DNA of 63,202 bases. Origin: a virus. The DNA lies in the IMG/VR virus record IMGVR_UViG_3300030329_003706, positions 1 to 63,202 of that record. One strand, written 5' to 3'. A program made the translations under genes and the position numbers. Shown here piece by piece: positions 10,716 through 38,579 of this stretch. The notes under the pieces were generated by a model. That model had not been told where the DNA came from and did not search any database. It saw nothing but the letters and a program-made list of their open reading frames with translations. Position 1 is the first letter of the stretch. Each line of letters begins with the position of its first letter.

Positions 10716-11624
10716 TTAAGCTCCAGGAGAACCAAACACACATCTTGGGTCAGAAACACCAAAACTATAACGCTCTCTAGCCTTATAGCGAACATTGCCT
10801 GTTTCAAAATCCCCTTCCATAGAGGTTTTGATAGCACTTCTTTCAAAATGCTTAAAACCATTTGGAGCATCTGTTTTGATAAAAAACGCATCAGTATCGG
10901 TTAAGAAGTGATTTACCACATAACCATCTGGTAGCATTCCCATGTTCTTAACAGCATTTACATCATTATCTGCTGTTCCAGATCTCAGGTTAGAAGCCAT
11001 CAATCTTTCTGCAACAAACTGTAATGCAGGTGGGATAATTAATTTCCTACCTTGTAATGCAATTTTCAAACCTCTTTCATCAATAAAAGCGGCGATATCG
11101 ATTAACGATTGCTCTAGTGATGTTTCATTAAGGTCTGCGGCTGTTGAAAGCTCGTTACGGAAAGTTCCTCCACCTACTGTTGGATGATCAGTCGCACAAA
11201 GCTCTTTACTATCGCCTATTGCGTAACTGCTGTCAAACGCATTGTTTAGTACAGAAGCCGCCTTGACTTGCTTAGTATTAGCCATTGATCTTGCTAATGC
11301 ACGAGTATAACGAGAGCTAAGTCTGTCATAGAGATTATCCTCTACAGCTTCCTCAGTAATCGCAAAAGCAAGTGCAATAGTTTCATGGGTATACCTTGCT
11401 GTAAAAGCTTCGTTTGCAGAGTCATATGCGACTGCCGCTCCCTCACCTTTCACTGGGGCTTGTCCAAAACCAGACAACATTACTTCCTCTTCAAACGCTC
11501 TGTCTGAAGATTCGGTTTCAAAAATTTCGGCATGCTCATTGTCATACCTATCGTACTCCATTCCGAACAAGGCATTTAATCCTGGTTCTAATTCTTTAAG
11601 GAGTTGTGATCTACTTATAGCCAT
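10716..11624 (-). CDS. Major capsid protein
   Basis: A 302-residue protein with features of the Mu gpT-like major head subunit branch of HK97-fold capsids. These include the N-terminal MAISRSQLLKELEPGLNALF helix, FAITEEAVEDNLYDRL near residue 90, and the late segments LIIPPALQFVAERL and YKARERYSFGVSDPR. It lies directly downstream of a decoration protein and scaffold and upstream of a terminator, the usual position of the main shell protein. Confidence is high from context plus pattern. Confidence 0.85.
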   Translation of the reverse strand: MAISRSQLLKELEPGLNALFGMEYDRYDNEHAEIFETESSDRAFEEEVMLSGFGQAPVKGEGAAVAYDSANEAFTARYTHETIALAFAITEEAVEDNLYDRLSSRYTRALARSMANTKQVKAASVLNNAFDSSYAIGDSKELCATDHPTVGGGTFRNELSTAADLNETSLEQSLIDIAAFIDERGLKIALQGRKLIIPPALQFVAERLMASNLRSGTADNDVNAVKNMGMLPDGYVVNHFLTDTDAFFIKTDAPNGFKHFERSAIKTSMEGDFETGNVRYKARERYSFGVSDPRCVFGSPGA

Positions 11625-11635
11625 ATTATACCTCC

Positions 11636-12253
11636 TTAAATACCTGCTATCGTACCATTTTGGCTGTAGCCGTAAAAATGGTTCGTAAGTTTAACAATCG
11701 CCAAACGCCCTGCACTTGAGGCATCACTGCTTGAAGGTGTATCTTCAAAACCCATGATTCTCATGTTCAAAGTGTTTGTAGTTGCAACAGTAGAAACTGC
11801 TAACTCACCAGAGGATTTACCTGTGGAAGAATCACCAGAAGTGGCTGTAGCAAAATTGGCGTTTGCGTGAATGGTTGCGTCTGCGGCGGCGGCATCACAA
11901 TTGATCAAAAATAATTGGTCAGGGTGACACGCAACTAATGCAGTCGCGGCGGTCGAACTCTTAAGAGAACTCGTTCCAGGGTACTTGTTCGTAAAGGTTG
12001 GAGTTCCGTCTGTAGCGGTATACTCACAACCAATAAATGCTCCGAGCAGAGGAACAGTTCCACCATTAGCATTGCCCACAATATCAATCATTCCATTCGC
12101 CAACGGTATGACAGGAGTTCCTTCGTATATTACACTGGAAGTTCCCGCCGTCGCTGATGTTTGAATCTTGAAAGAGACAATACCATTAGTGTTTGCTCCT
12201 GCACCAAGCATTTTATAGGGTCTTAACCCAAAGGCGGCGTCTAAATTTGCCAT
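11636..12253 (-). CDS. Capsid-associated structural protein, 205 aa
   Basis: It starts MANLDAAFGLRPYKMLGAG, recognisable from marine phages as the protein encoded next to the major capsid. Predicted all-beta, with a stretch rich in Ala/Thr. Likely a head decoration or auxiliary head protein; this is inferred from position. Confidence 0.65.
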   Translation of the reverse strand: MANLDAAFGLRPYKMLGAGANTNGIVSFKIQTSATAGTSSVIYEGTPVIPLANGMIDIVGNANGGTVPLLGAFIGCEYTATDGTPTFTNKYPGTSSLKSSTAATALVACHPDQLFLINCDAAAADATIHANANFATATSGDSSTGKSSGELAVSTVATTNTLNMRIMGFEDTPSSSDASSAGRLAIVKLTNHFYGYSQNGTIAGI

Positions 12254-20650: not shown

Positions 20651-21088
20651 TTAACTAGCTGTAGGCTGTACAACTAATTTAATGTAGCAAGTACCCCAAT
20701 AGCTACTGCTTGGGCTGTAGCCACCGTTTAAAAGTGCAAACAAGCAATTTGGGTTTTTGGCACTATGACCAAGCTTACTAGCGTTTGCCAAAACGACAGC
20801 CAAACTAGTGTTTGTTTTGTGGGCGTTTAAAATACTATTTTGTATTGTAGCCCTTACGCCTTGCCCACTACCACCGTAGCCAAACGGTGTAGGTTTAGCA
20901 CTACCAAGCTTTACGTTTGATAGTGGTACTATTTGCACATTGGCTAACTGCCCTTGAGCGTGTGTATTTACCCACTTGTAAAAGCTAGTGGCATTGTACG
21001 GCGTTTGACCACACCCTACGCCACCGTAAACGACAGCTTTGGTGCTAACAGCATTTTTACTGTTATTTTTTGGTTTAGTGTTTTGCAT
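20651..21088 (-). CDS. Paralogue 1 of an unknown, highly promoted protein, 145 aa
   Basis: Shares extended identity with the gene at 21863-22288: PFGYGGS-G-GVR-TIQ in the middle and LGHS-x3-PNC, then NGGYSPSSxYWGTxYIKLVVQ, at the C-terminus. No known domain recognised. Transcribed alone, with its own promoter preceded by three phased T-tracts (21130-21190) and a perfect hairpin terminator. This suggests strong, independent expression. Ribosome site AAAAAGGAGTATATT before ATG. The Lys/Asn-rich N-terminus (KPKNNSKN) could bind nucleic acid; that is a guess. Confidence 0.8.
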   Translation of the reverse strand: MQNTKPKNNSKNAVSTKAVVYGGVGCGQTPYNATSFYKWVNTHAQGQLANVQIVPLSNVKLGSAKPTPFGYGGSGQGVRATIQNSILNAHKTNTSLAVVLANASKLGHSAKNPNCLFALLNGGYSPSSSYWGTCYIKLVVQPTAS

Positions 21089-21862: not shown

Positions 21863-22288
21863 TTAACCTTGAACCACCAATTTGATGTAAGGAGTTCCCC
21901 AATATTTACTTGATGGGGAGTAACCACCGTTCATCGCGGCGAGCACACAGTTTGGACGTTTTTTACTGTGTCCAAGTTTCGCGGCTTTCGCGAGTACAGT
22001 TTTAAGGGACGTGTCACCATCAACACCAAAAATTATCCAGTCTTGTATGGTTTGACGAACGCCACCTTTTGACCCACCGTATCCAAAAGGCAGTGGCTCA
22101 CTGCCAGTCTTGTCAACATTAGGTAAGCATTCAATTTTGACATTCGCCTCATTGCCTCCTGCTTGCTCAGCAATAAACTTAGTGATGTCGGTGTAATCAA
22201 GAGTCTTGCCGTCCTTAACAACTAACTCTACAGACTTTACGACTGCCTTAGGAGTCGCTGCCTTTGATTTTGGTTTAATGTTATTCAT
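21863..22288 (-). CDS. Paralogue 2 of an unknown, highly promoted protein, 141 aa
   Basis: Start at the ATG at 22288, preceded by AGAAAGGAGATACTC; a further in-frame ATG upstream lies before that site. The C-terminal two thirds align with the gene at 20651-21088 (PFGYGGSKGGVRQTIQ, LGHSKKRPNC, NGGYSPSSKYWGTPYIKL). The N-terminus is basic and Ala/Lys-rich (IKPKSKAATPK). Bounded by its own promoter (22331-22370) and terminator. No known function; the pair sits inside the packaging gene block. Confidence 0.85.
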   Translation of the reverse strand: MNNIKPKSKAATPKAVVKSVELVVKDGKTLDYTDITKFIAEQAGGNEANVKIECLPNVDKTGSEPLPFGYGGSKGGVRQTIQDWIIFGVDGDTSLKTVLAKAAKLGHSKKRPNCVLAAMNGGYSPSSKYWGTPYIKLVVQG

Positions 22289-22330
22289 GAGTATCTCCTT
22301 TCTACGAGAATTATTTTTTAACATTAATTA

Positions 22331-27388: not shown

Positions 27389-27425
27389 ATATTACTACAG
27401 CATTTGTCGTATGATAAGTCTTATT
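27389..27425 (-). promoter_or_regulatory. Leftward promoter of the AATAAGAC family
   Basis: AATAAGACTTATCA (27425-27412), a 17-bp spacer, then TAATAT (27394-27389). The TAA stop of the MazG-like gene lies inside the motif. Confidence 0.8.
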
Positions 27426-27816
27426 TGTTCTTGTATTTTCTTAAAACGCCCTCAATATCAGGAGGTTTGTAGCTTGGTCCTTTGAGTATTTTGCCATCTT
27501 TACGATAAATAGGTTTTCCCTCGTCATCAAGTTTTGACATATTGCTTTTATGAACTTCTGTGAATAATGGATCAAGGTCTATGCCAAAAGAGTGACCAAT
27601 CCCGTAAACAACATATAGTAAATCGGTTAAGCCATCAGCAATACCTATTATATCTTTTTCTGCTAGTGCTTTATAGAACTCTGCTAATTCTTCCTCTAGC
27701 AATAGCATACCAAGTTTTGAGGTATCTTCATCAGGAAAGGTTGGTGTGTCGTGGACTTTATGCCCGAAAGTCTTCATAAATATTTTTACTTTCCCAGAGT
27801 TTGAAAAACCTGTCAT
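27421..27816 (-). CDS. MazG-like/PRA-PH nucleotide pyrophosphohydrolase
   Basis: A 131-residue all-alpha protein. LLLEEELAEFYKAL (residues 38-51) supplies the metal-binding ExxE, and DGLTDLLYVVYG (61-72) supplies the second acidic motif. EVHKSNMSKLD and GKILKGPSYKPPD near the C-terminus are typical of the phage PRA-PH branch. It hydrolyses NTPs/dNTPs or related alarmone-like nucleotides; in phages it is thought to adjust host nucleotide signalling. Confidence 0.85.
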   Translation of the reverse strand: MTGFSNSGKVKIFMKTFGHKVHDTPTFPDEDTSKLGMLLLEEELAEFYKALAEKDIIGIADGLTDLLYVVYGIGHSFGIDLDPLFTEVHKSNMSKLDDEGKPIYRKDGKILKGPSYKPPDIEGVLRKYKNK

Positions 27817-31658: not shown

Positions 31659-31907
31659 TCAGTTCATTACAAATTTAGTATAGCAGTCTTTACAATAGCT
31701 TGATGTGGGTATGGCTACTTCTCCACATTCACATTTAAGAGCTCCGTTTAACAACACACGGTGACAAGCACCACAATAGACATCAGTTTTATGATCATCC
31801 TCATAAATTCTGCCTCTTGTTTGTTCTCCACAATAATCACAACTTATAAAGGTTTTCCAATGTCGTTTGTACCGTAGAGGGTTCTTTATTTTTGAGGGTA
31901 ATTGCAT
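31659..31907 (-). CDS. Double zinc-ribbon protein, 82 aa
   Basis: Four CxxC-type pairs: CDYCGE, CGACH, CECGE and CKDC. The start at 31907 has AGGAGATTATAA before ATG and lies 71 bases inside the 3' end of the HD gene, an unusually long but intact out-of-frame overlap. Function unknown. Confidence 0.65.
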   Translation of the reverse strand: MQLPSKIKNPLRYKRHWKTFISCDYCGEQTRGRIYEDDHKTDVYCGACHRVLLNGALKCECGEVAIPTSSYCKDCYTKFVMN

Positions 31908-32472
31908 TTATAATCTCCTGTACTTGCTGAAATTCATCCAGTTTTCTATAGTTTTCTTGCAAATAGTTAATTCCCTTTATGAAAACATCTTCCGCAAGAG
32001 AATTTCCTGTTTGCATTAGTCTATAACAATGGAGAATAAGTTCAAGCTTATCTGCTATATCGCATAAAGATTTTTCAAGCACCGTTACTTTATAGATTCT
32101 ACTACCCACCCCTATTTTATCTTCATGGTCGTTTTCCACTTGTTCCATTAATTTATTCAGCTGTGGGTATTTCCACTTAGTCGTTGCAGGCATATCCCCT
32201 GTTTCTGCTTCTGCCACATCATGATACATTAGGTGAATCATGCAGTTTTTACTTACGTCAGGAAAAAGTGTTTGTAAAATAACCATCGCCCTCCATGTAT
32301 GAGCGGCGACATTCTGCCCCTCTGATAACTCTGGTCGAGTATGGTAGCGAACAACATGTCCTGCTTTTAGACGTTCGTGTAGTCTTTGCAAAATAAGTGC
32401 TTTGCTGAATTTAAGTCGTATTGATTTTAAGTCAACATCTGGCTGTGTTGACTCTTGAGTCCTCTTGTCCAT
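31837..32472 (-). CDS. HD-domain 5'-deoxynucleotidase, YfbR-like
   Basis: The start at 32472 follows GGAGAAGCC. RYHTRPEL (about residue 43), AAHTWRA (His58), YHDVAEAETGDMPA (His84, Asp85) and CDIADKLE give the full HD metal site of YfbR-type dNMP phosphatases. It would feed deoxynucleosides or tune dNMP pools for replication, in keeping with the adjacent polymerase gene. Overlaps the polymerase 3' end by 46 bases. Confidence 0.82.
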   Translation of the reverse strand: MDKRTQESTQPDVDLKSIRLKFSKALILQRLHERLKAGHVVRYHTRPELSEGQNVAAHTWRAMVILQTLFPDVSKNCMIHLMYHDVAEAETGDMPATTKWKYPQLNKLMEQVENDHEDKIGVGSRIYKVTVLEKSLCDIADKLELILHCYRLMQTGNSLAEDVFIKGINYLQENYRKLDEFQQVQEIINAITLKNKEPSTVQTTLENLYKL

Positions 32473-34343
32473 GGCTTCTCCGTAAATGTTTGTTTTGCCT
32501 CCCCCCAATTTGGTCCAAATTCAGCGTCAACTACTGAGGGAACTTCTAGTTGGACGCAGTTTTCCATGATTTCTGTGATTTGTTTAGCCTGTTGTTCGTC
32601 CTCTACAGAAATATCTAGTTCATCGTGAACTTGAATCATGGGTAGTATACCTTCTTCCGCTAATGCGACCATCGCCGCTTTTGTTTGATCAGCCGCTGAC
32701 CCTTGTATCAGTTTATTCAAGGCTTTATATGTAAACGCTCTTTTGATGGCAGGACCATGCTCTCCGTAAGCTTCTTGGTAGCTCATGGGTTTCCAACTTC
32801 CATATTTGTTAGGCTCCCATTTATCGAATCTACAACGCCTCCCTAACAAAGTGCGTATAACCCCCCGATTACTCGCTCTATTTGAGGTGTATTCACTTAA
32901 TTCTCTTACAAAAGGCACTTTGTCGTGGTAGGTGGAGAATAAATCTTGAGCATCTTCGTATTCGAGTCCTAAACTAGCGGCGAGTTTCTTACTTCCCATA
33001 CCATAAAACAGTCCTAAGTTAATGTCTTTGGCTTGTTTGCGTGGAACTCCTACAATATCAGCCGCCATTTGGTGGAAATCTGTTCTTGCGTTTTGGTTGT
33101 ATTGCTCAGAGAACTCTGAAGCCCCTCTGAACCCCATCAACTTAGCATAATGAACAACTATGCGTGGTTCTTGGCTAGAGTAGTCGAACGCACCCCATAA
33201 GGCTCCTTCTTCTGGTAAGAATAGGCTACGTATCATTGGTCCAATTTCACCATGCCTAGCAGGGATTTGTTGTAGGTTTGGATTGCTGTAGCTAAACCTA
33301 CCTGTGACTGTACCCCCTTGATCGCTTCTCAAGGGGTGTAGCTCAGCGTGAATACGTCCATTCACCTGATGTTTTAAAACGGTGTCTACAAAAGTAGACC
33401 TTGCTTTTTGATATTCACGAGCCTGCACTATCATTTTAGGTATTTCATGGGGGTGATTAGCTAAAAATCCTTTAGTAAAAGAAGGAGCTTCGGTTTTTTC
33501 TGTTTTGGTGTAGCTAAGATTTAAAGAATCAAACACTTTTGCCACACTTTCGGCTGACCAGATTTCTACTGCAACCCCTGTCTTTTTAAGAATAGTCGTT
33601 AGAAGATTATTTTCCCTAACTAATAAATCTTCTTTTATCTTCTCTGCTTTGTCTAGGTCTACTCTAACTCCTCTTTGTCTCATAGGAATAATGGTTTTTA
33701 AAACTTTAAGCTCTAAATTAAAGATATCCTGAATGTCCTCCTTAATAATTAAGGATTTAAAGTGCTTCCATAACCTTAATGTAAGCGAGGCATCTTGTTC
33801 TGCGTATTTGCCTACATGAGCCGCAGGGAGTTTATACATTTCGCTTTTTGCATTTACTCCAAAAGCTTCGGCGGCTTCTCTTAATTCAACCTCACTTTTA
33901 CGCTCTTGTAGGTAATCTCTTCCCAAAGCATTTAGAGCATAACTAAACCTGTTCTCATCTAGTAAAGGAGCAACAACCATTGTGTCAACAATTCTGCCGT
34001 GAATGGTTACGTTTTCAGCGAGTAACCAACCGACATCGTAAGGAGCATTGTGGAAAATGTAATCTCGGTCTATTTTACAAACAGAAGCTAACCACTTTAA
34101 TGTCATATCGGGATCGAAATTAGGTCCGATTTCGTGGCGAATGGGAAAATACCATTGGTCTCCTTCTACAGCTACGGCTACTCCTATTATACAGCCATCT
34201 TTTCTAGCCCAACCACTTCCCATAGAGGAAAGATTAGGATCTTTGGTTTCAAGATCTATTGATACTTCTTTAGCATGACTTAAATCTGGGTAGCCATCTG
34301 GCATAACCCATTCAGTCGGGGGTTGAAATAGGGGGTACTGCAT
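32427..34343 (-). CDS. polA: DNA polymerase I family (Pol A), Leu762 type
   Basis: A 638-residue replicative polymerase. Exonuclease: SIDLETKDP (Asp30, Glu32), HNAPYDVGWL (Asp103) and YAEQDASLTLRL (Asp184). Polymerase: motif A FDYSSQEPR (Asp387), motif B RKQAKDINLGLFYG (435-448), motif C QVHDELDI (571-578). The residue equivalent to E. coli Phe762 is Leu443. No 5' nuclease domain. Start MQYPLFQPPTEW after AGGATAAAACGAA. Confidence 0.95.
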   Translation of the reverse strand: MQYPLFQPPTEWVMPDGYPDLSHAKEVSIDLETKDPNLSSMGSGWARKDGCIIGVAVAVEGDQWYFPIRHEIGPNFDPDMTLKWLASVCKIDRDYIFHNAPYDVGWLLAENVTIHGRIVDTMVVAPLLDENRFSYALNALGRDYLQERKSEVELREAAEAFGVNAKSEMYKLPAAHVGKYAEQDASLTLRLWKHFKSLIIKEDIQDIFNLELKVLKTIIPMRQRGVRVDLDKAEKIKEDLLVRENNLLTTILKKTGVAVEIWSAESVAKVFDSLNLSYTKTEKTEAPSFTKGFLANHPHEIPKMIVQAREYQKARSTFVDTVLKHQVNGRIHAELHPLRSDQGGTVTGRFSYSNPNLQQIPARHGEIGPMIRSLFLPEEGALWGAFDYSSQEPRIVVHYAKLMGFRGASEFSEQYNQNARTDFHQMAADIVGVPRKQAKDINLGLFYGMGSKKLAASLGLEYEDAQDLFSTYHDKVPFVRELSEYTSNRASNRGVIRTLLGRRCRFDKWEPNKYGSWKPMSYQEAYGEHGPAIKRAFTYKALNKLIQGSAADQTKAAMVALAEEGILPMIQVHDELDISVEDEQQAKQITEIMENCVQLEVPSVVDAEFGPNWGEAKQTFTEKPWTRGLKSQHSQMLT

Positions 34344-34491
34344 TTCGTTTTATCCTCATTGATTGTTTACATCTTTTACAGATGGGAAATTTGTTTTTTA
34401 ATGCTCGAAAGGTAATTATCTTACTTGTTCCACAGTCATCACACACGGCTCTAATTGTGTTATCTAGTTTTCCATTCGCACCTGTCTTCAC
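34312..34491 (-). CDS. Small zinc-finger protein, 59 aa
   Basis: The GTG at 34491 follows AGGAGGATATGTTTC, which makes it the better start; an ATG 21 bases upstream lies before that site. VCDDCGTSK and CKRCKQ form a four-cysteine finger with a basic tail. Overlaps the polymerase start by 32 bases. Possibly a DNA-binding accessory. Confidence 0.6.
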   Translation of the reverse strand: MKTGANGKLDNTIRAVCDDCGTSKIITFRALKNKFPICKRCKQSMRIKRNAVPPISTPD

Positions 34492-34861
34492 GAAACATAT
34501 CCTCCTCTTCATGAGATATTCTACTAGGGTGATCTAAACCATCTGTATCATAAGACTCATGGTTATTATCCTTTCTAAGAATTTCTGCTTCTACAAGCAT
34601 AAGATACCTGCGTAAATCTTTGATATCATCAATAACACCCTCTGGTCGAGTATCTAACTGAGCTGTTTTGAATATATCATAGTTATGCTCCGTGACTTGC
34701 TTTTCAAGCCTGTCCCATTTACGAGCAAGCATCATAAACGCCCCTACACCTCCACGCTGTTTCCAGCTGTCACCGTAGCTTTGTTCAGATTTATGCAACC
34801 CTTCTACATCTTGCTTTGCTACTTTTTCTACAAGTGCTATCATCGTGCTGTATTGTGTCAT
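34460..34861 (-). CDS. Conserved phage protein, 133 aa
   Basis: The start at 34861 follows AAGGAGGAAAAA and overlaps the end of the ThyA-like gene by 4 bases. SYGDSWKQRGGVGAFMMLAR near residue 35 and IKDLRRYLMLVEAEIL are conserved patterns in marine phage replication regions. Function unknown. Confidence 0.65.
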   Translation of the reverse strand: MTQYSTMIALVEKVAKQDVEGLHKSEQSYGDSWKQRGGVGAFMMLARKWDRLEKQVTEHNYDIFKTAQLDTRPEGVIDDIKDLRRYLMLVEAEILRKDNNHESYDTDGLDHPSRISHEEEDMFREDRCEWKTR

Positions 34862-35835
34862 TTTTTCCTCCTTTTTAACCATTCAACACACGCCTTACGC
34901 CATGCTCTGTCTTCTATTTTAAAAGCATACTTAAAAGCCGAACTCATATTCTTTTGTTTCCACATATGCCACGATTTTCTCATCATAGCCGCCGTCTTGC
35001 CCAAGAATTCATTTTTATAATTGAATAAATCTTCATCTATAAACCATTTTTGCAATTCTTCATCAAAACAACTTGGGTCTGAAACAATAGGGGGAGAACT
35101 GTAACTCAACCCATCATCCGCAATGGTGAGGTAAGGTTCTCTGTCTATTTGCATACCGTCTAACTTTTTTAAAGGCTCTACATAGGCATGAAGATTATTA
35201 CTGAATTGGTAATAGTCGCCCACCTTACAGCCTGTCATAGATGCCATATACTCTTGCAGTATAGACATATGCACAGCATTAGCTCCATAAGCTCCCCATA
35301 TCATATCATTACTACGATTAACTACTGTCATGTGAAGTTCACTTTTTCGTTTCCAAAAGAAGATTTGTGTATTACAGGGGTGATCTTTACCACCATTACT
35401 TCTATGGAGGTCTTGTATGGGATCCCACATATTTATAACCACTCTCCTATCGTTGGGATAAGTGGTTAATCTAAATATGGCAATTTCTAACTGATCTTTA
35501 CCAAACCATGTTCTCCACCTGTAACCGTAAGCTCCATGTGAAGTTATTCCATCATCACTGTATTCCACCATTCGCTTATTGTAGTTTTGTATAAACTCTA
35601 CATCGTTTCTACCTGCTAACATCCAAAGGGATTCCATTAAATGGAAATAGGGGTTAGCGTCCCTTTCTGGATAAAACAATACTCTTTCTCTACTGTGTGT
35701 ATAGGTCGTTACAACTGGACCAGGAAACTCCAATGCTAACCCATTACGAGTTTCCACTTCTATACCTGAAGATTCTAAAGCATCTTTGCCTATGGCTAAA
35801 GCTTCACTAACATTACGAACCCATATTTCTTGCAT
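34858..35835 (-). CDS. Thymidylate synthase-family protein (possible dUMP hydroxymethylase)
   Basis: A 325-residue ThyA-fold protein: catalytic Cys154 in DHPCNTQIFF, RSNDMIWGAYGANAVH (Arg174, Asp177, Asn186) and NNLHAY. Asn186 lines up with the ThyA Asn that selects dUMP over dCMP. By eye, the position of E. coli Trp80 is Tyr92 (VEYSDDG). Its neighbours are a hypermodification-type protein, a glycosyltransferase and a methyltransferase. It may therefore make 5-hydroxymethyl-dUMP rather than dTMP; that reading is inference. Confidence 0.85.
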   Translation of the reverse strand: MQEIWVRNVSEALAIGKDALESSGIEVETRNGLALEFPGPVVTTYTHSRERVLFYPERDANPYFHLMESLWMLAGRNDVEFIQNYNKRMVEYSDDGITSHGAYGYRWRTWFGKDQLEIAIFRLTTYPNDRRVVINMWDPIQDLHRSNGGKDHPCNTQIFFWKRKSELHMTVVNRSNDMIWGAYGANAVHMSILQEYMASMTGCKVGDYYQFSNNLHAYVEPLKKLDGMQIDREPYLTIADDGLSYSSPPIVSDPSCFDEELQKWFIDEDLFNYKNEFLGKTAAMMRKSWHMWKQKNMSSAFKYAFKIEDRAWRKACVEWLKRRKK

Positions 35836-36508
35836 CTGCTACATCCTTTCTTATCCAACAACTGTTAGGTTCAATGAGTTTAGGCAATGAACCTTTTTTA
35901 TTTGCAACTCTTTCAGTCCACTTTAATAAGTATCCCTTAGAACGTAAAAGCTCCCACTTTCGCTGTTTTATTTCTTCCTGCTCCTCTCTATACTCTTTAG
36001 TGGTATTGCCCTTAATAGCTACATAATCTTCTGTGATTATTTCTTCTGGAAACACTTGCCAACTGTAAGCAGATAATATGTTTTTATCATTGCCTTCTGT
36101 ATCTATCTTTAATATGTCCACATGGGTAATATTGTGTTCCTTGAATAAAGTGTCTAAAGTTTTAAGGGGAACAGTTTGATACTCATCTGTTAAATGCTGT
36201 GAAATATATTCGGTGTCCTTTAATAAAGAAGAACGCATACATTTTTCTTTTTGTGCAGGACTACGTCTGTTCATAAATCCATATTTCCCCATATATAATT
36301 TACCTACACCATCTTCATTGCTTATGGCACAATGTTCATACTTGAAATCACACCCCGATAAGCTTTTAAATATTTCCTCTTTTAAATGAATATTGGGTTC
36401 TACCATCAAACCAAACCATTTTTCTCTTTTACGATGCAATAACTTATTAGCTAGAGATAATGTTCTGGCATTAAAGCACCCAATGTCTACAATTACCTTT
36501 TTGTTCAT
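35813..36508 (-). CDS. FkbM-family methyltransferase
   Basis: Start at 36508 (MNKKVIVDIGCFNARTL) after GAGGAGGCGTTAT. VIVDIGCFN is the SAM-binding glycine motif; VPLKTLDTLFKEH, then VDILKIDTEGND are the FkbM signatures (about residues 115-140). The family O-methylates sugars and other hydroxyls. Lying beside a glycosyltransferase, it could methylate a sugar attached to DNA or to a virion or host surface. Overlaps the ThyA-like gene by 23 bases. Confidence 0.8.
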   Translation of the reverse strand: MNKKVIVDIGCFNARTLSLANKLLHRKREKWFGLMVEPNIHLKEEIFKSLSGCDFKYEHCAISNEDGVGKLYMGKYGFMNRRSPAQKEKCMRSSLLKDTEYISQHLTDEYQTVPLKTLDTLFKEHNITHVDILKIDTEGNDKNILSAYSWQVFPEEIITEDYVAIKGNTTKEYREEQEEIKQRKWELLRSKGYLLKWTERVANKKGSLPKLIEPNSCWIRKDVADARNMGS

Positions 36509-36555
36509 ATAACGCCTCCTCGACGTAGTTAGTGGTTTTGCTACCCTGTACACCT

Positions 36556-36593
36556 AAAAAGGCGTAGAGGGGGTCGAGTGGCTTAAATACGCC
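36556..36593 (-). terminator. Possible terminator/attenuator after the glycosyltransferase
   Basis: GGCGTA/TACGCC (36561-36566 with 36588-36593), with a 21-base loop, is followed on the minus strand by five T residues. The stem begins inside the stop-codon region of the glycosyltransferase. Weak to moderate. Confidence 0.45.
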
Positions 36594-37677
36594 CCTCAAA
36601 AAAGCTTAAATACTGTTTTCCTATAACTTTTGGGCTGTGTAGAGCTAATGCCTTGCTACCGTTCTCTCTATAAAAAGATAAAGGCGTTGAAGTAGAAGAG
36701 TACTGTGTTCCCATCACTCCTGCGTTAGATGCTACTCCCATACTCTTTCTGGGTATAGAATCGTTGGGGGAATCTATACTGTTTATAAGTTCAGCTAATT
36801 CTTCTGCTGTGCTTACGACTAAACAATTGATATCTGGCTTCATATCGTCTGGCTCATCCAGTAACCACTTAGAATGAATAATAGGAATACATCCTGCGTT
36901 CCATGCTTCAAGCCAAGTGTACTGTGTTCCCCCTCCATCGCCTACTATTTGGGTCATATCTACATTAAAGATATATTTTTTCATAAGGTTAAACGCATGA
37001 TCATTTTCTCTTGGGTAGTGAGCCTTAGACTGTACCCATTCAGGATACTTAGGCACTATCTTAAAGCGAGTGTATATTCTGTTTTCAAATCCCCTTATGT
37101 TTATTTTCTTGTTATCTGGTAATAAACGGTTAGCATCAAGCAAAACTTCTGTGTGCTTATCAAAATCTATTCTAGAAGTACTGATAGCAATTCCTCCACG
37201 AGTGCTTATATTGTTTGGGGTTTGAGAAGTAAAGGGGGAGTAGGGGTGTCTTATGAAAGTAGAACCCTTTAATGTCCTTGCCCCAATTTGTCTTATACTG
37301 ATACACCTATTGGGATCTAAGTTTTCAGGCAAGTTTTTCAACTCAGTAGGATCATGCACCACTATGAAAGCACCGTTGTCATATAGCTGTTGTGTTTGTT
37401 CCTTGAACTGTTTGGCTCCTGCGACAACAAGCTTAATCTCTGATCGCATAGAATTACTTGAAAAGTTACCATTGTATTTGTTAAAAACATCATCCAAAGA
37501 AATGTTTTGGTACTTTTTCCCATACCCAAAATCTCTTTGAAACTTTTCTGATTTTGGACGAACCTTGTAAAGATAAGGGGTAATCCCCACTTCTTTTAGT
37601 GCGTCCATAAGGTGACTGGTATAAGTTACCCAACCTCCATAGGGATTGGGACTTAAATAAAATAAATTTGCTCTCAT
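36583..37677 (-). CDS. Glycosyltransferase-like protein (GT-B fold)
   Basis: A 364-residue protein. It opens MRANLFYLSPNPYGGWVTYT, a Gly-rich loop like GT4 donors, and has GGGTQYTWLEAWNAGCIPII near residue 255. The latter matches the ExGAxxxG-type donor-binding motif of GT-B enzymes (WLEAWNAGCIPI). Nucleotide-sugar use is inferred. In this cluster it may glycosylate a modified thymine; a surface-glycan role is the alternative. Confidence 0.7.
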   Translation of the reverse strand: MRANLFYLSPNPYGGWVTYTSHLMDALKEVGITPYLYKVRPKSEKFQRDFGYGKKYQNISLDDVFNKYNGNFSSNSMRSEIKLVVAGAKQFKEQTQQLYDNGAFIVVHDPTELKNLPENLDPNRCISIRQIGARTLKGSTFIRHPYSPFTSQTPNNISTRGGIAISTSRIDFDKHTEVLLDANRLLPDNKKINIRGFENRIYTRFKIVPKYPEWVQSKAHYPRENDHAFNLMKKYIFNVDMTQIVGDGGGTQYTWLEAWNAGCIPIIHSKWLLDEPDDMKPDINCLVVSTAEELAELINSIDSPNDSIPRKSMGVASNAGVMGTQYSSTSTPLSFYRENGSKALALHSPKVIGKQYLSFFEGRI

Positions 37678-38579
37678 TCTATTTTTCCTTTTATTGAATC
37701 TGTAAATGTTTGTTTGTACAAGCTACGAGGCTTACCCTCACCTAGCCTAACTCTTTCGTACTTGTCCCACTCACATAGGCTATGTTCAATAGTACGCATA
37801 TCTATGTCTGATTCAGAACAAATTAATTGACCATACTCTCGCTTGTATTGAAGCAAGAACCACATTTCTTCATTAGCTTGTTTTTGGCTTATCGTTTTGT
37901 TGAGGGGGCGTTCCCCAATCCTGTTAAGACCGCGAATTGCTCCAGGTCCTGCGTTTGCCCAAGTAAAACGGTCTTTTGGGCATGGTAACACAGATGTGTA
38001 GTTGAGGTCGGAAACGACCTCGTATGACATAAAACCTCCCCCTCCCCACCCTTTATAGGAAGCCATCGCATTGTGGAGACTTTGCAAGGAATTTGTTTGG
38101 GACGCCACAATAGCAAGTTTTTCCTTGTCTCGCCAGATTGGGGATAAGAAGTGGTCAACTACTACCTCCGATTTCCTAAGTTTAAGACCCTGATTCGTAA
38201 TTATATACGCTCCAGTAAATGTCCGTAAACCCTTATCTAATCTTCTTTCTATGATTTCTTTGGTGCGAGTAGGATCCCACTCTGTTACCCACCCATGTTC
38301 CTCAGCAAACTCTATAGTACCCACCATTCTAAACAAACAGCAATTAAATATTATTTCGCCATGATCACGATTATGGTTTAAATCAGTCCAGTTCCTACGC
38401 ATCCAAACGGTTACTCTATCGTTTTCCCTAAATGGATTAGTGAACTTATATTTTTGTAATATAGGGTCAGTAGTCCAAGGAGGAGGTTTACCCTCTAGCC
38501 TACGTTGATATATACGATGCCGTTCTGTTATCCAATCATATAACAAACAGGCATTTAATCTAGCTTCTTTTTCAAACAT
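37674..38579 (-). CDS. HMUDK_hel/aGPT-Pplase-family DNA base hypermodification protein
   Basis: A 301-residue protein. ITERHRIYQRRLEGKPPPWT, then DPILQKYKFTNPFRENDRVT (about residues 17-57) is the signature of the family described as 5-hmdU DNA kinase helical domain or alpha-glutamyl/putrescinyl-thymine pyrophosphorylase clade 2. These act on 5-hydroxymethyluracil in phage DNA in hypermodified thymine pathways. No P-loop is present. First gene after the operator-like promoter at 38602-38640 and overlapping the glycosyltransferase start. Confidence 0.75.
   Translation of the reverse strand: MFEKEARLNACLLYDWITERHRIYQRRLEGKPPPWTTDPILQKYKFTNPFRENDRVTVWMRRNWTDLNHNRDHGEIIFNCCLFRMVGTIEFAEEHGWVTEWDPTRTKEIIERRLDKGLRTFTGAYIITNQGLKLRKSEVVVDHFLSPIWRDKEKLAIVASQTNSLQSLHNAMASYKGWGGGGFMSYEVVSDLNYTSVLPCPKDRFTWANAGPGAIRGLNRIGERPLNKTISQKQANEEMWFLLQYKREYGQLICSESDIDMRTIEHSLCEWDKYERVRLGEGKPRSLYKQTFTDSIKGKIE

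Follow-up and report, generated by a model that had tools for sequence, protein, structure and literature searches.

The stretch of viral DNA analysed here, IMG/VR virus record IMGVR_UViG_3300030329_003706 (63202 bases in all, hereafter the window), carries on its minus strand four adjacent genes at 34858-38579, each of them open at its coordinates, which we read as a putative module for glycosylating modified thymine in phage DNA. They encode a protein of the HMUDK_hel/aGPT-PPlase clade 1 (HEL), a glycosyltransferase (GT), an FkbM-family methyltransferase and a ThyA-fold enzyme. A preliminary description had already taken them for a thymine hypermodification cassette, and its names for the four proteins agree with the profile matches reported below and, for the GT, with an AlphaFold2 model searched by Foldseek. 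It had also called all four genes overlapping, which is correct for the HEL/GT and FkbM/ThyA junctions (4 nt and 23 nt, respectively) but not for the GT/FkbM junction.

The ThyA-fold protein (34858..35835, minus strand; PF00303 1.4e-21; phrog_5131 4e-102) is predicted to be a pyrimidine hydroxymethylase acting on dUMP. Its PF00303 score of 77 bits is accompanied by scores far below the NCBIfam cut-offs for thymidylate synthase (TS), and its closest PDB match is the CMP hydroxymethylase MilA. We compared residues across 81 ThyA sequences against an E. coli TS reference that agrees with the PDB alignments. The TS positions Glu58, Tyr94, Cys146, Arg166, Asp169, Asn177, His207 and Tyr209 are kept in 81/81 sequences; in the same 81/81, Leu143 is replaced by Asp and His147 by Asn, and Trp83 has become Tyr or Phe. 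The corresponding residues of the window protein, Asp151 (at TS Leu143), Cys154, Asn155 and Asn186, are all invariant (81/81), and Asp151, Cys154 and Asn186 are those looked for in a dUMP hydroxymethylase. In T4 dCMP hydroxymethylase, Asp145 occupies the Leu143 position and the D145N change abolishes activity, and Asp179, which is Asn in TS, decides between dCMP and dUMP (PMC6400193). The window enzyme therefore combines the Asp of a hydroxymethylase with the Asn that goes with uracil. Furthermore, it shares 45% identity with YuA gp17, which carries the annotation of putative deoxyuridylate hydroxymethyltransferase. Signature residues, the MilA match and gene context thus support, at the level of sequence, the earlier suggestion that this protein makes the 5-hydroxymethyl base.

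HEL (37674..38579, minus strand) lacks a P-loop kinase domain and matches PF18723 (HMUDK_hel) over essentially its full length (1.1e-51; 176.4 bits against a curated cut-off of 25; residues 13-281, profile positions 7-278 of 281). Its AlphaFold2 model (pLDDT 91) is all-helical and, like its sequence, finds nothing significant in the PDB. Among viral structures in BFVD, its relatives are the HMUDK_hel proteins of phiRSL1 and PhiW-14, the 637-aa 5-hydroxymethyldeoxyuridine (5-hmdU) DNA kinase of SP10, which contains the HEL fold, and then amino acid:DNA transferases (E 2.4e-3). Weak DNA-glycosylase-like matches (MagIII, AGOG, and a viral endonuclease III at E 0.35) are a hint only. Profile-profile alignment with hhalign gave no match between HEL and aGPT-PPlase2. 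The preliminary description had HEL activating or processing the base, and activation is not borne out: in the M6-like phages YuA and Sonora a separate P-loop kinase gene lies directly upstream of HEL, and in SP10 the kinase is fused to it. When we searched by tblastn for that kinase (queries YuA gp13 and Sonora_041) and for the amino acid:DNA transferase aGPT-PPlase2 (query Sonora_039), neither gave a significant match in the window or in 97 related loci.

The GT gene (36583..37677, minus strand) encodes a glycosyltransferase of an unnamed family, predicted from its model and gene context to glycosylate a 5-hydroxymethyl pyrimidine in DNA. The protein has no match among Pfam, PHROG or NCBIfam profiles and none in the PDB by sequence, and in particular neither it nor its family matches Pfam profiles of the T4 AGT and BGT families (GT72/GT63), and the protein itself has no PHROG match to them either. 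Its AlphaFold2 model (pLDDT 82.8), the kind of structure prediction proposed earlier as a check on this call, has a GT-B fold with 144 Foldseek matches in the PDB at E <1e-3, the lowest being 5.8e-9; among the best of them are T4 AGT (5.8e-8) and AGT with DNA containing 5-hydroxymethyluracil (5-hmU) (2e-7). Alignment with 12 viral relatives revealed the invariant motifs SRIDFDK and DGGGTQYTxLE and the invariant residues R168, K173 and E256; R168...K173 and DGGGTQYTxLE provide a donor-site motif within the modelled GT-B fold.

Between the GT and ThyA genes lies that of the FkbM-family S-adenosylmethionine (SAM)-dependent methyltransferase (35813..36508, minus strand, extendable to a GTG at 36553), a predicted sugar O-methyltransferase that exceeds the cut-offs of both PF05050 (2.1e-12; 47.9 bits, cut-off 22.7) and TIGR01444 (48.6, cut-off 37.7). 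The more likely start is the ATG at 36508, which stands behind GAGGAGG and leaves a gap of 74 nt after the GT gene. The RNA of this junction (36510-36590, minus strand) folds better than shuffled sequence (z -3.3) and is possibly a translation or stability element. Among all loci fetched, such an FkbM gene was never seen apart from the GT: the two accompany each other in six contigs and the window, in two gene orders, GT-FkbM-ThyA and GT-ThyA-FkbM. This dependence on the GT, combined with indifference to position, fits a methyltransferase that acts on the transferred sugar, which is the role we infer for it. Scanning viral contigs with one FkbM sequence as query gave no hits. The gene context thus favours the earlier proposal that the GT and FkbM proteins together decorate the 5-hydroxymethyl base.

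To place the cassette among its relatives we collected 80 viral contigs that encode an orthologue of HEL (56-82% identity), in 73 of which both HEL and ThyA were detected. With few exceptions, and allowing for contig ends, the 80 contigs keep the order DUF932 - HEL - [slot] - ThyA - 140-aa gene - PolA - HD, and the window itself has a DUF932 gene (Pfam) upstream of HEL. Neighbourhood conservation, proposed earlier as a check, is therefore found: HEL-[slot]-ThyA-PolA-HD is constant across the 73 loci, and it is the slot that varies. Its contents are interchangeable, and nearly all of them include a glycosyltransferase. It holds a GT4-like gene in 30 loci, TAGT plus a radical SAM/SPASM gene in 27, the window GT in eight and the window GT with FkbM in four; two more carry a different gene, termed c8, and in another two the slot is empty, with a GT4-like gene further upstream. 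The TAGT genes match PF20691 (5.6e-14) and phrog_842 (1e-43); the window GT has no match to PF20691. It is, in turn, a remote homologue of the GT4-like slot family over its full length (hhalign E 1.3e-6). The exchange is seen directly in one pair of contigs, L035 and L036: a 10.9-kb stretch ending at the HEL stop codon is 95.9% identical between them, their slot genes differ, and from ThyA onward they are alike again (90-97%). The slot is thus a site of one-gene exchange on a constant scaffold. The c8 proteins (~335 aa; L080 10877-11878 and L081 10877-11893) belong to no recognised family and have no match to the window GT, and for this reason we do not call them glycosyltransferases. In a distant relative, L092, the slot gene at 10995-11786 looks sulfotransferase-like by eye, without a Pfam match, and lies beside GT, TAGT and radical SAM genes; it may represent a further sugar decoration.

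The GT family itself was followed by a profile-guided scan, which gave a set of 73 contigs (27-65% identity). Its members lie near HEL and/or ThyA in 34 of these contigs and near a Tet_JBP dioxygenase, usually as the adjoining gene, in 32; neither is present in the remaining seven, one of which is incomplete and two of which have a ParB-like and a radical-SAM-like gene instead. Clustering at 70% identity left 19, 22 and 6 clusters in the three groups, so the association does not stem from a handful of clones. TET dioxygenases have no relationship to ThyA-fold hydroxymethylases, but the two arrive at the same group, a 5-hydroxymethyl pyrimidine; this common handle is the simplest explanation of the company that the GT family keeps. 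A loose motif for C5-methyltransferases found one near TET-linked GTs in 2/37 loci. No relatives appeared in 50,697 phage records at the sensitivity used, or in a pattern scan of GTDB species genomes. In L160 and L171, where TET is missing, the GT relatives instead come after a ParB-like gene and one resembling radical-SAM or photolyase genes, which may be a third route to the acceptor group, and the relative in L156 (5992-6939) has neighbours that, by eye, resemble those of a virophage or polinton-like virus.

The conserved unit extends beyond the four genes. Between ThyA and PolA lies a 140-aa protein (34460..34882, minus strand), which is present in almost every related locus of sufficient length and whose homologue in Pseudanabaena phage Pam3 is annotated 'nucleotide modification'. 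It is followed by a family A DNA polymerase, PolA (32427..34343, minus strand; PF00476 8e-64), the replication partner of the module, and by an HD (YfbR-like) protein (31837..32508, minus strand; PF12917 1.8e-10; phrog_7076 dATPase 1e-12) that is nearly constant across related loci and is predicted to be a deoxynucleotide phosphohydrolase. In other phages, YuA among them, genes for HD homologues overlap a pyrimidine hydroxymethylase gene or lie directly beside it, which fits depletion of a competing canonical nucleotide. A dATPase-like gene beside PolA also raised the prospect of a 2-aminoadenine (Z) genome; this was rejected, as there is no purZ-like gene among the ORFs read and the HD homologues adjoin pyrimidine hydroxymethylases. 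A MazG-like nucleotide pyrophosphohydrolase at 27421-27816 (phrog_671, 5e-40) is possibly part of pool management. The terminase is ~61% identical to that of Pelagibacter phage HTVC027P and PolA is 56% identical to that of phage 023Pt_psg01, which places the window phage in the HTVC023P-type, pelagiphage-like lineage. In 023Pt_psg01, HTVC023P and DSL-LC04, no more than two small genes separate a UvrD helicase gene from the PolA gene that comes after it, and the surroundings of PolA showed no HEL, ThyA, HD, DUF932 or 140-aa gene; the module is therefore an optional block in this lineage. Elsewhere in the window, the neighbouring minus-strand ORFs 20651-21088 and 21863-22324 are paralogues with the common motifs GYGGSxxGVRxTIQ and NGGYSPSSxYWGTxYIKLVVQ; the first has no Pfam match.

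A base-modification role for the cassette is supported, and we put at roughly three in four the probability that it is a thymine-glycosylation module, by which 5-hmU in phage DNA is glycosylated and the sugar O-methylated. The ThyA-fold enzyme would convert dUMP to 5-hydroxymethyl-dUMP, as its signature residues and context suggest; the HD protein may clear the competing canonical nucleotide, and the phage PolA would then place 5-hmdU opposite A. HEL, judging by its fold and its partnership with kinases elsewhere, would bind DNA and present or flip out 5-hmU. The GT-B enzyme would attach a sugar taken from a nucleotide-sugar directly to the 5-hydroxymethyl group of the base in DNA, in the manner of T4 AGT on 5-hydroxymethylcytosine (5hmC), and the FkbM protein would methylate that sugar. 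As the tailoring step is the replaceable one, related phages would be expected to carry different sugars on the same 5-hmU scaffold, and the phage would gain by escaping restriction and other defences that recognise DNA. Several points weigh against this picture. The GT-B matches are broad, T4 AGT being one of 144; no sugar-nucleotide gene was recognised among the ORFs examined; FkbM enzymes often methylate glycans in other settings; the many charged residues that are invariant in HEL suggest a catalytic and not a scaffolding role; and the TET-linked GT relatives may act on 5hmC, so that the family need not be specific for 5-hmU.

The invariant charged residues of HEL, its full PF18723 membership and the fold that it has in common with amino acid:DNA transferases would also suit a route of the M6/ViI type, in which 5-hmU in DNA is pyrophosphorylated, an amino-acid or polyamine group then takes the place of the pyrophosphate, with HEL as kinase or transferase, and the sugar is added to that group; the radical SAM protein in the slot of several related loci points the same way. 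We consider this route unlikely. The kinase that stands directly upstream of HEL in YuA and Sonora has no homologue in the window or related loci, nor does aGPT-PPlase2, whose profile HEL does not match, and the absence of both enzymes makes direct glycosylation likelier than pyrophosphate activation. A sugar can be transferred to a hydroxymethyl group without any pyrophosphate leaving group; loss of the kinase accordingly fits direct glycosylation and favours HEL as a DNA- or base-presenting partner. We hold this role for HEL with moderate confidence, since its many invariant charged residues may point to a catalytic one.

Less probable still is that the GT and FkbM genes are cargo for cell-surface or virion glycans, serving to mask receptors and lying in the replication region by chance. 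Glycan loci often contain FkbM and GT4-type enzymes, and other pelagiphages carry glycosyltransferases that modify lipopolysaccharide (PMC9599517). Travel with surface-glycan genes, which the preliminary description had named as evidence against itself, is not what the GT family does, however: 66/73 of its contigs place it beside HEL/ThyA or TET/JBP, TAGT or a GT4-like gene takes its place in one-for-one exchanges, and it is missing from the phage records and GTDB genomes scanned. On this gene context we reject surface-glycan cargo. Least probable of all, in our estimate, is that ThyA is an ordinary TS and the cassette supports the nucleotide pool without modifying bases. The PF00303 match and the frequency of thyA in phages agree with such a role, but the protein scores far below the TS cut-offs, lacks His147 and Leu143 of TS, has the hydroxymethylase Asp and is surrounded by base-modification families. 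Returning to the glycosylation module, a more specific version, which we offer tentatively and at slightly less than even odds, is that the product is a base-J-like glycosyl-5-hydroxymethyluracil with an O-methylated sugar, made by a GT family without a named profile; that the kinase-free HEL is a general 5-hmU-presenting partner for interchangeable sugar-transfer enzymes; and that DNA sugars diversify by one-gene swaps.

The window contributes a putative family of DNA glycosyltransferases that accompanies hydroxymethyl pyrimidines of both the ThyA type and the TET type, a concrete and testable gene set in marine phages, and a case in which the predicted base decoration changes by exchange of a single gene, the pattern that an arms race with restriction enzymes and modified-base glycosylases would produce. 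The literature, covered in part, yielded no earlier description of this GT-B family or of its association with both ThyA-type and TET-type systems, and none of the slot being exchanged one gene at a time or of an FkbM gene in a cassette of this kind. A glycosylated hypermodified uracil is known from SP-15 (PMC5977210), and a 2019 paper noted that there had been no report of glucosylated 5-hmdU in phages (PMC6449724). The window shares its lineage, and the pairing of TS with aG/PT-PPlase1 near PolA, with the HTVC023P-type pelagiphages, for which PMC9599517 describes that pair in clades V, VIII and IX and, in some relatives, a 5'-deoxynucleotidase with a putative glucosyltransferase. The latter name belongs to phrog_842/TAGT, which differs from the window GT in fold and family, and the passages of that source covered here make no mention of the GT-B family, FkbM, the one-for-one swap or the missing kinase. 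Thus the TS and aGPT-PPlase1 pair in pelagiphages is published, and the GT family, the swap slot and the kinase-less form look new.

Among characterised enzymes, T4 AGT resembles the window GT in its GT-B fold and in acting on a 5-hydroxymethyl pyrimidine in DNA; it differs in sequence family, and the window GT is linked to 5-hmU or TET contexts, not to a T4-type dCMP hydroxymethylase. TAGT (PF20691) occupies the same slot in related loci and is likewise tied to hydroxymethyl pyrimidines, with a GT-A fold (PMC13216743) as opposed to the GT-B fold of the window GT. Base J of kinetoplastids (glucosyl-5-hmU) is alike in the predicted product, an O-glycosyl 5-hydroxymethyluracil in DNA. It arises by JBP oxidation of T in DNA followed by JGT, whereas the window phage is predicted to form its hydroxymethyluracil as a nucleotide, by means of a ThyA-fold enzyme, and its sugar may carry a methyl group; no Tet_JBP match was found among those window proteins scanned with Pfam. 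A likeness in layout is seen to Pseudomonas phage M6/YuA and Salmonella phage ViI, whose thymidine hypermodifications are 5-NedU and 5-NeOmdU. These phages have the same HEL family (33-37% identity) and the same order of HEL, an intervening gene, dUMP hydroxymethylase and PolA, and in YuA an HD homologue adjoins ThyA. They differ from it in having the P-loop 5-hmdU DNA kinase and the amino-acid transferase, in place of which the window has a GT and a methyltransferase in the slot. Taken together, the cassette is real and conserved, and is most likely a variant of phage thymine hypermodification that, on the evidence of sequence and gene neighbourhood, would serve to glycosylate and O-methylate 5-hydroxymethyluracil.

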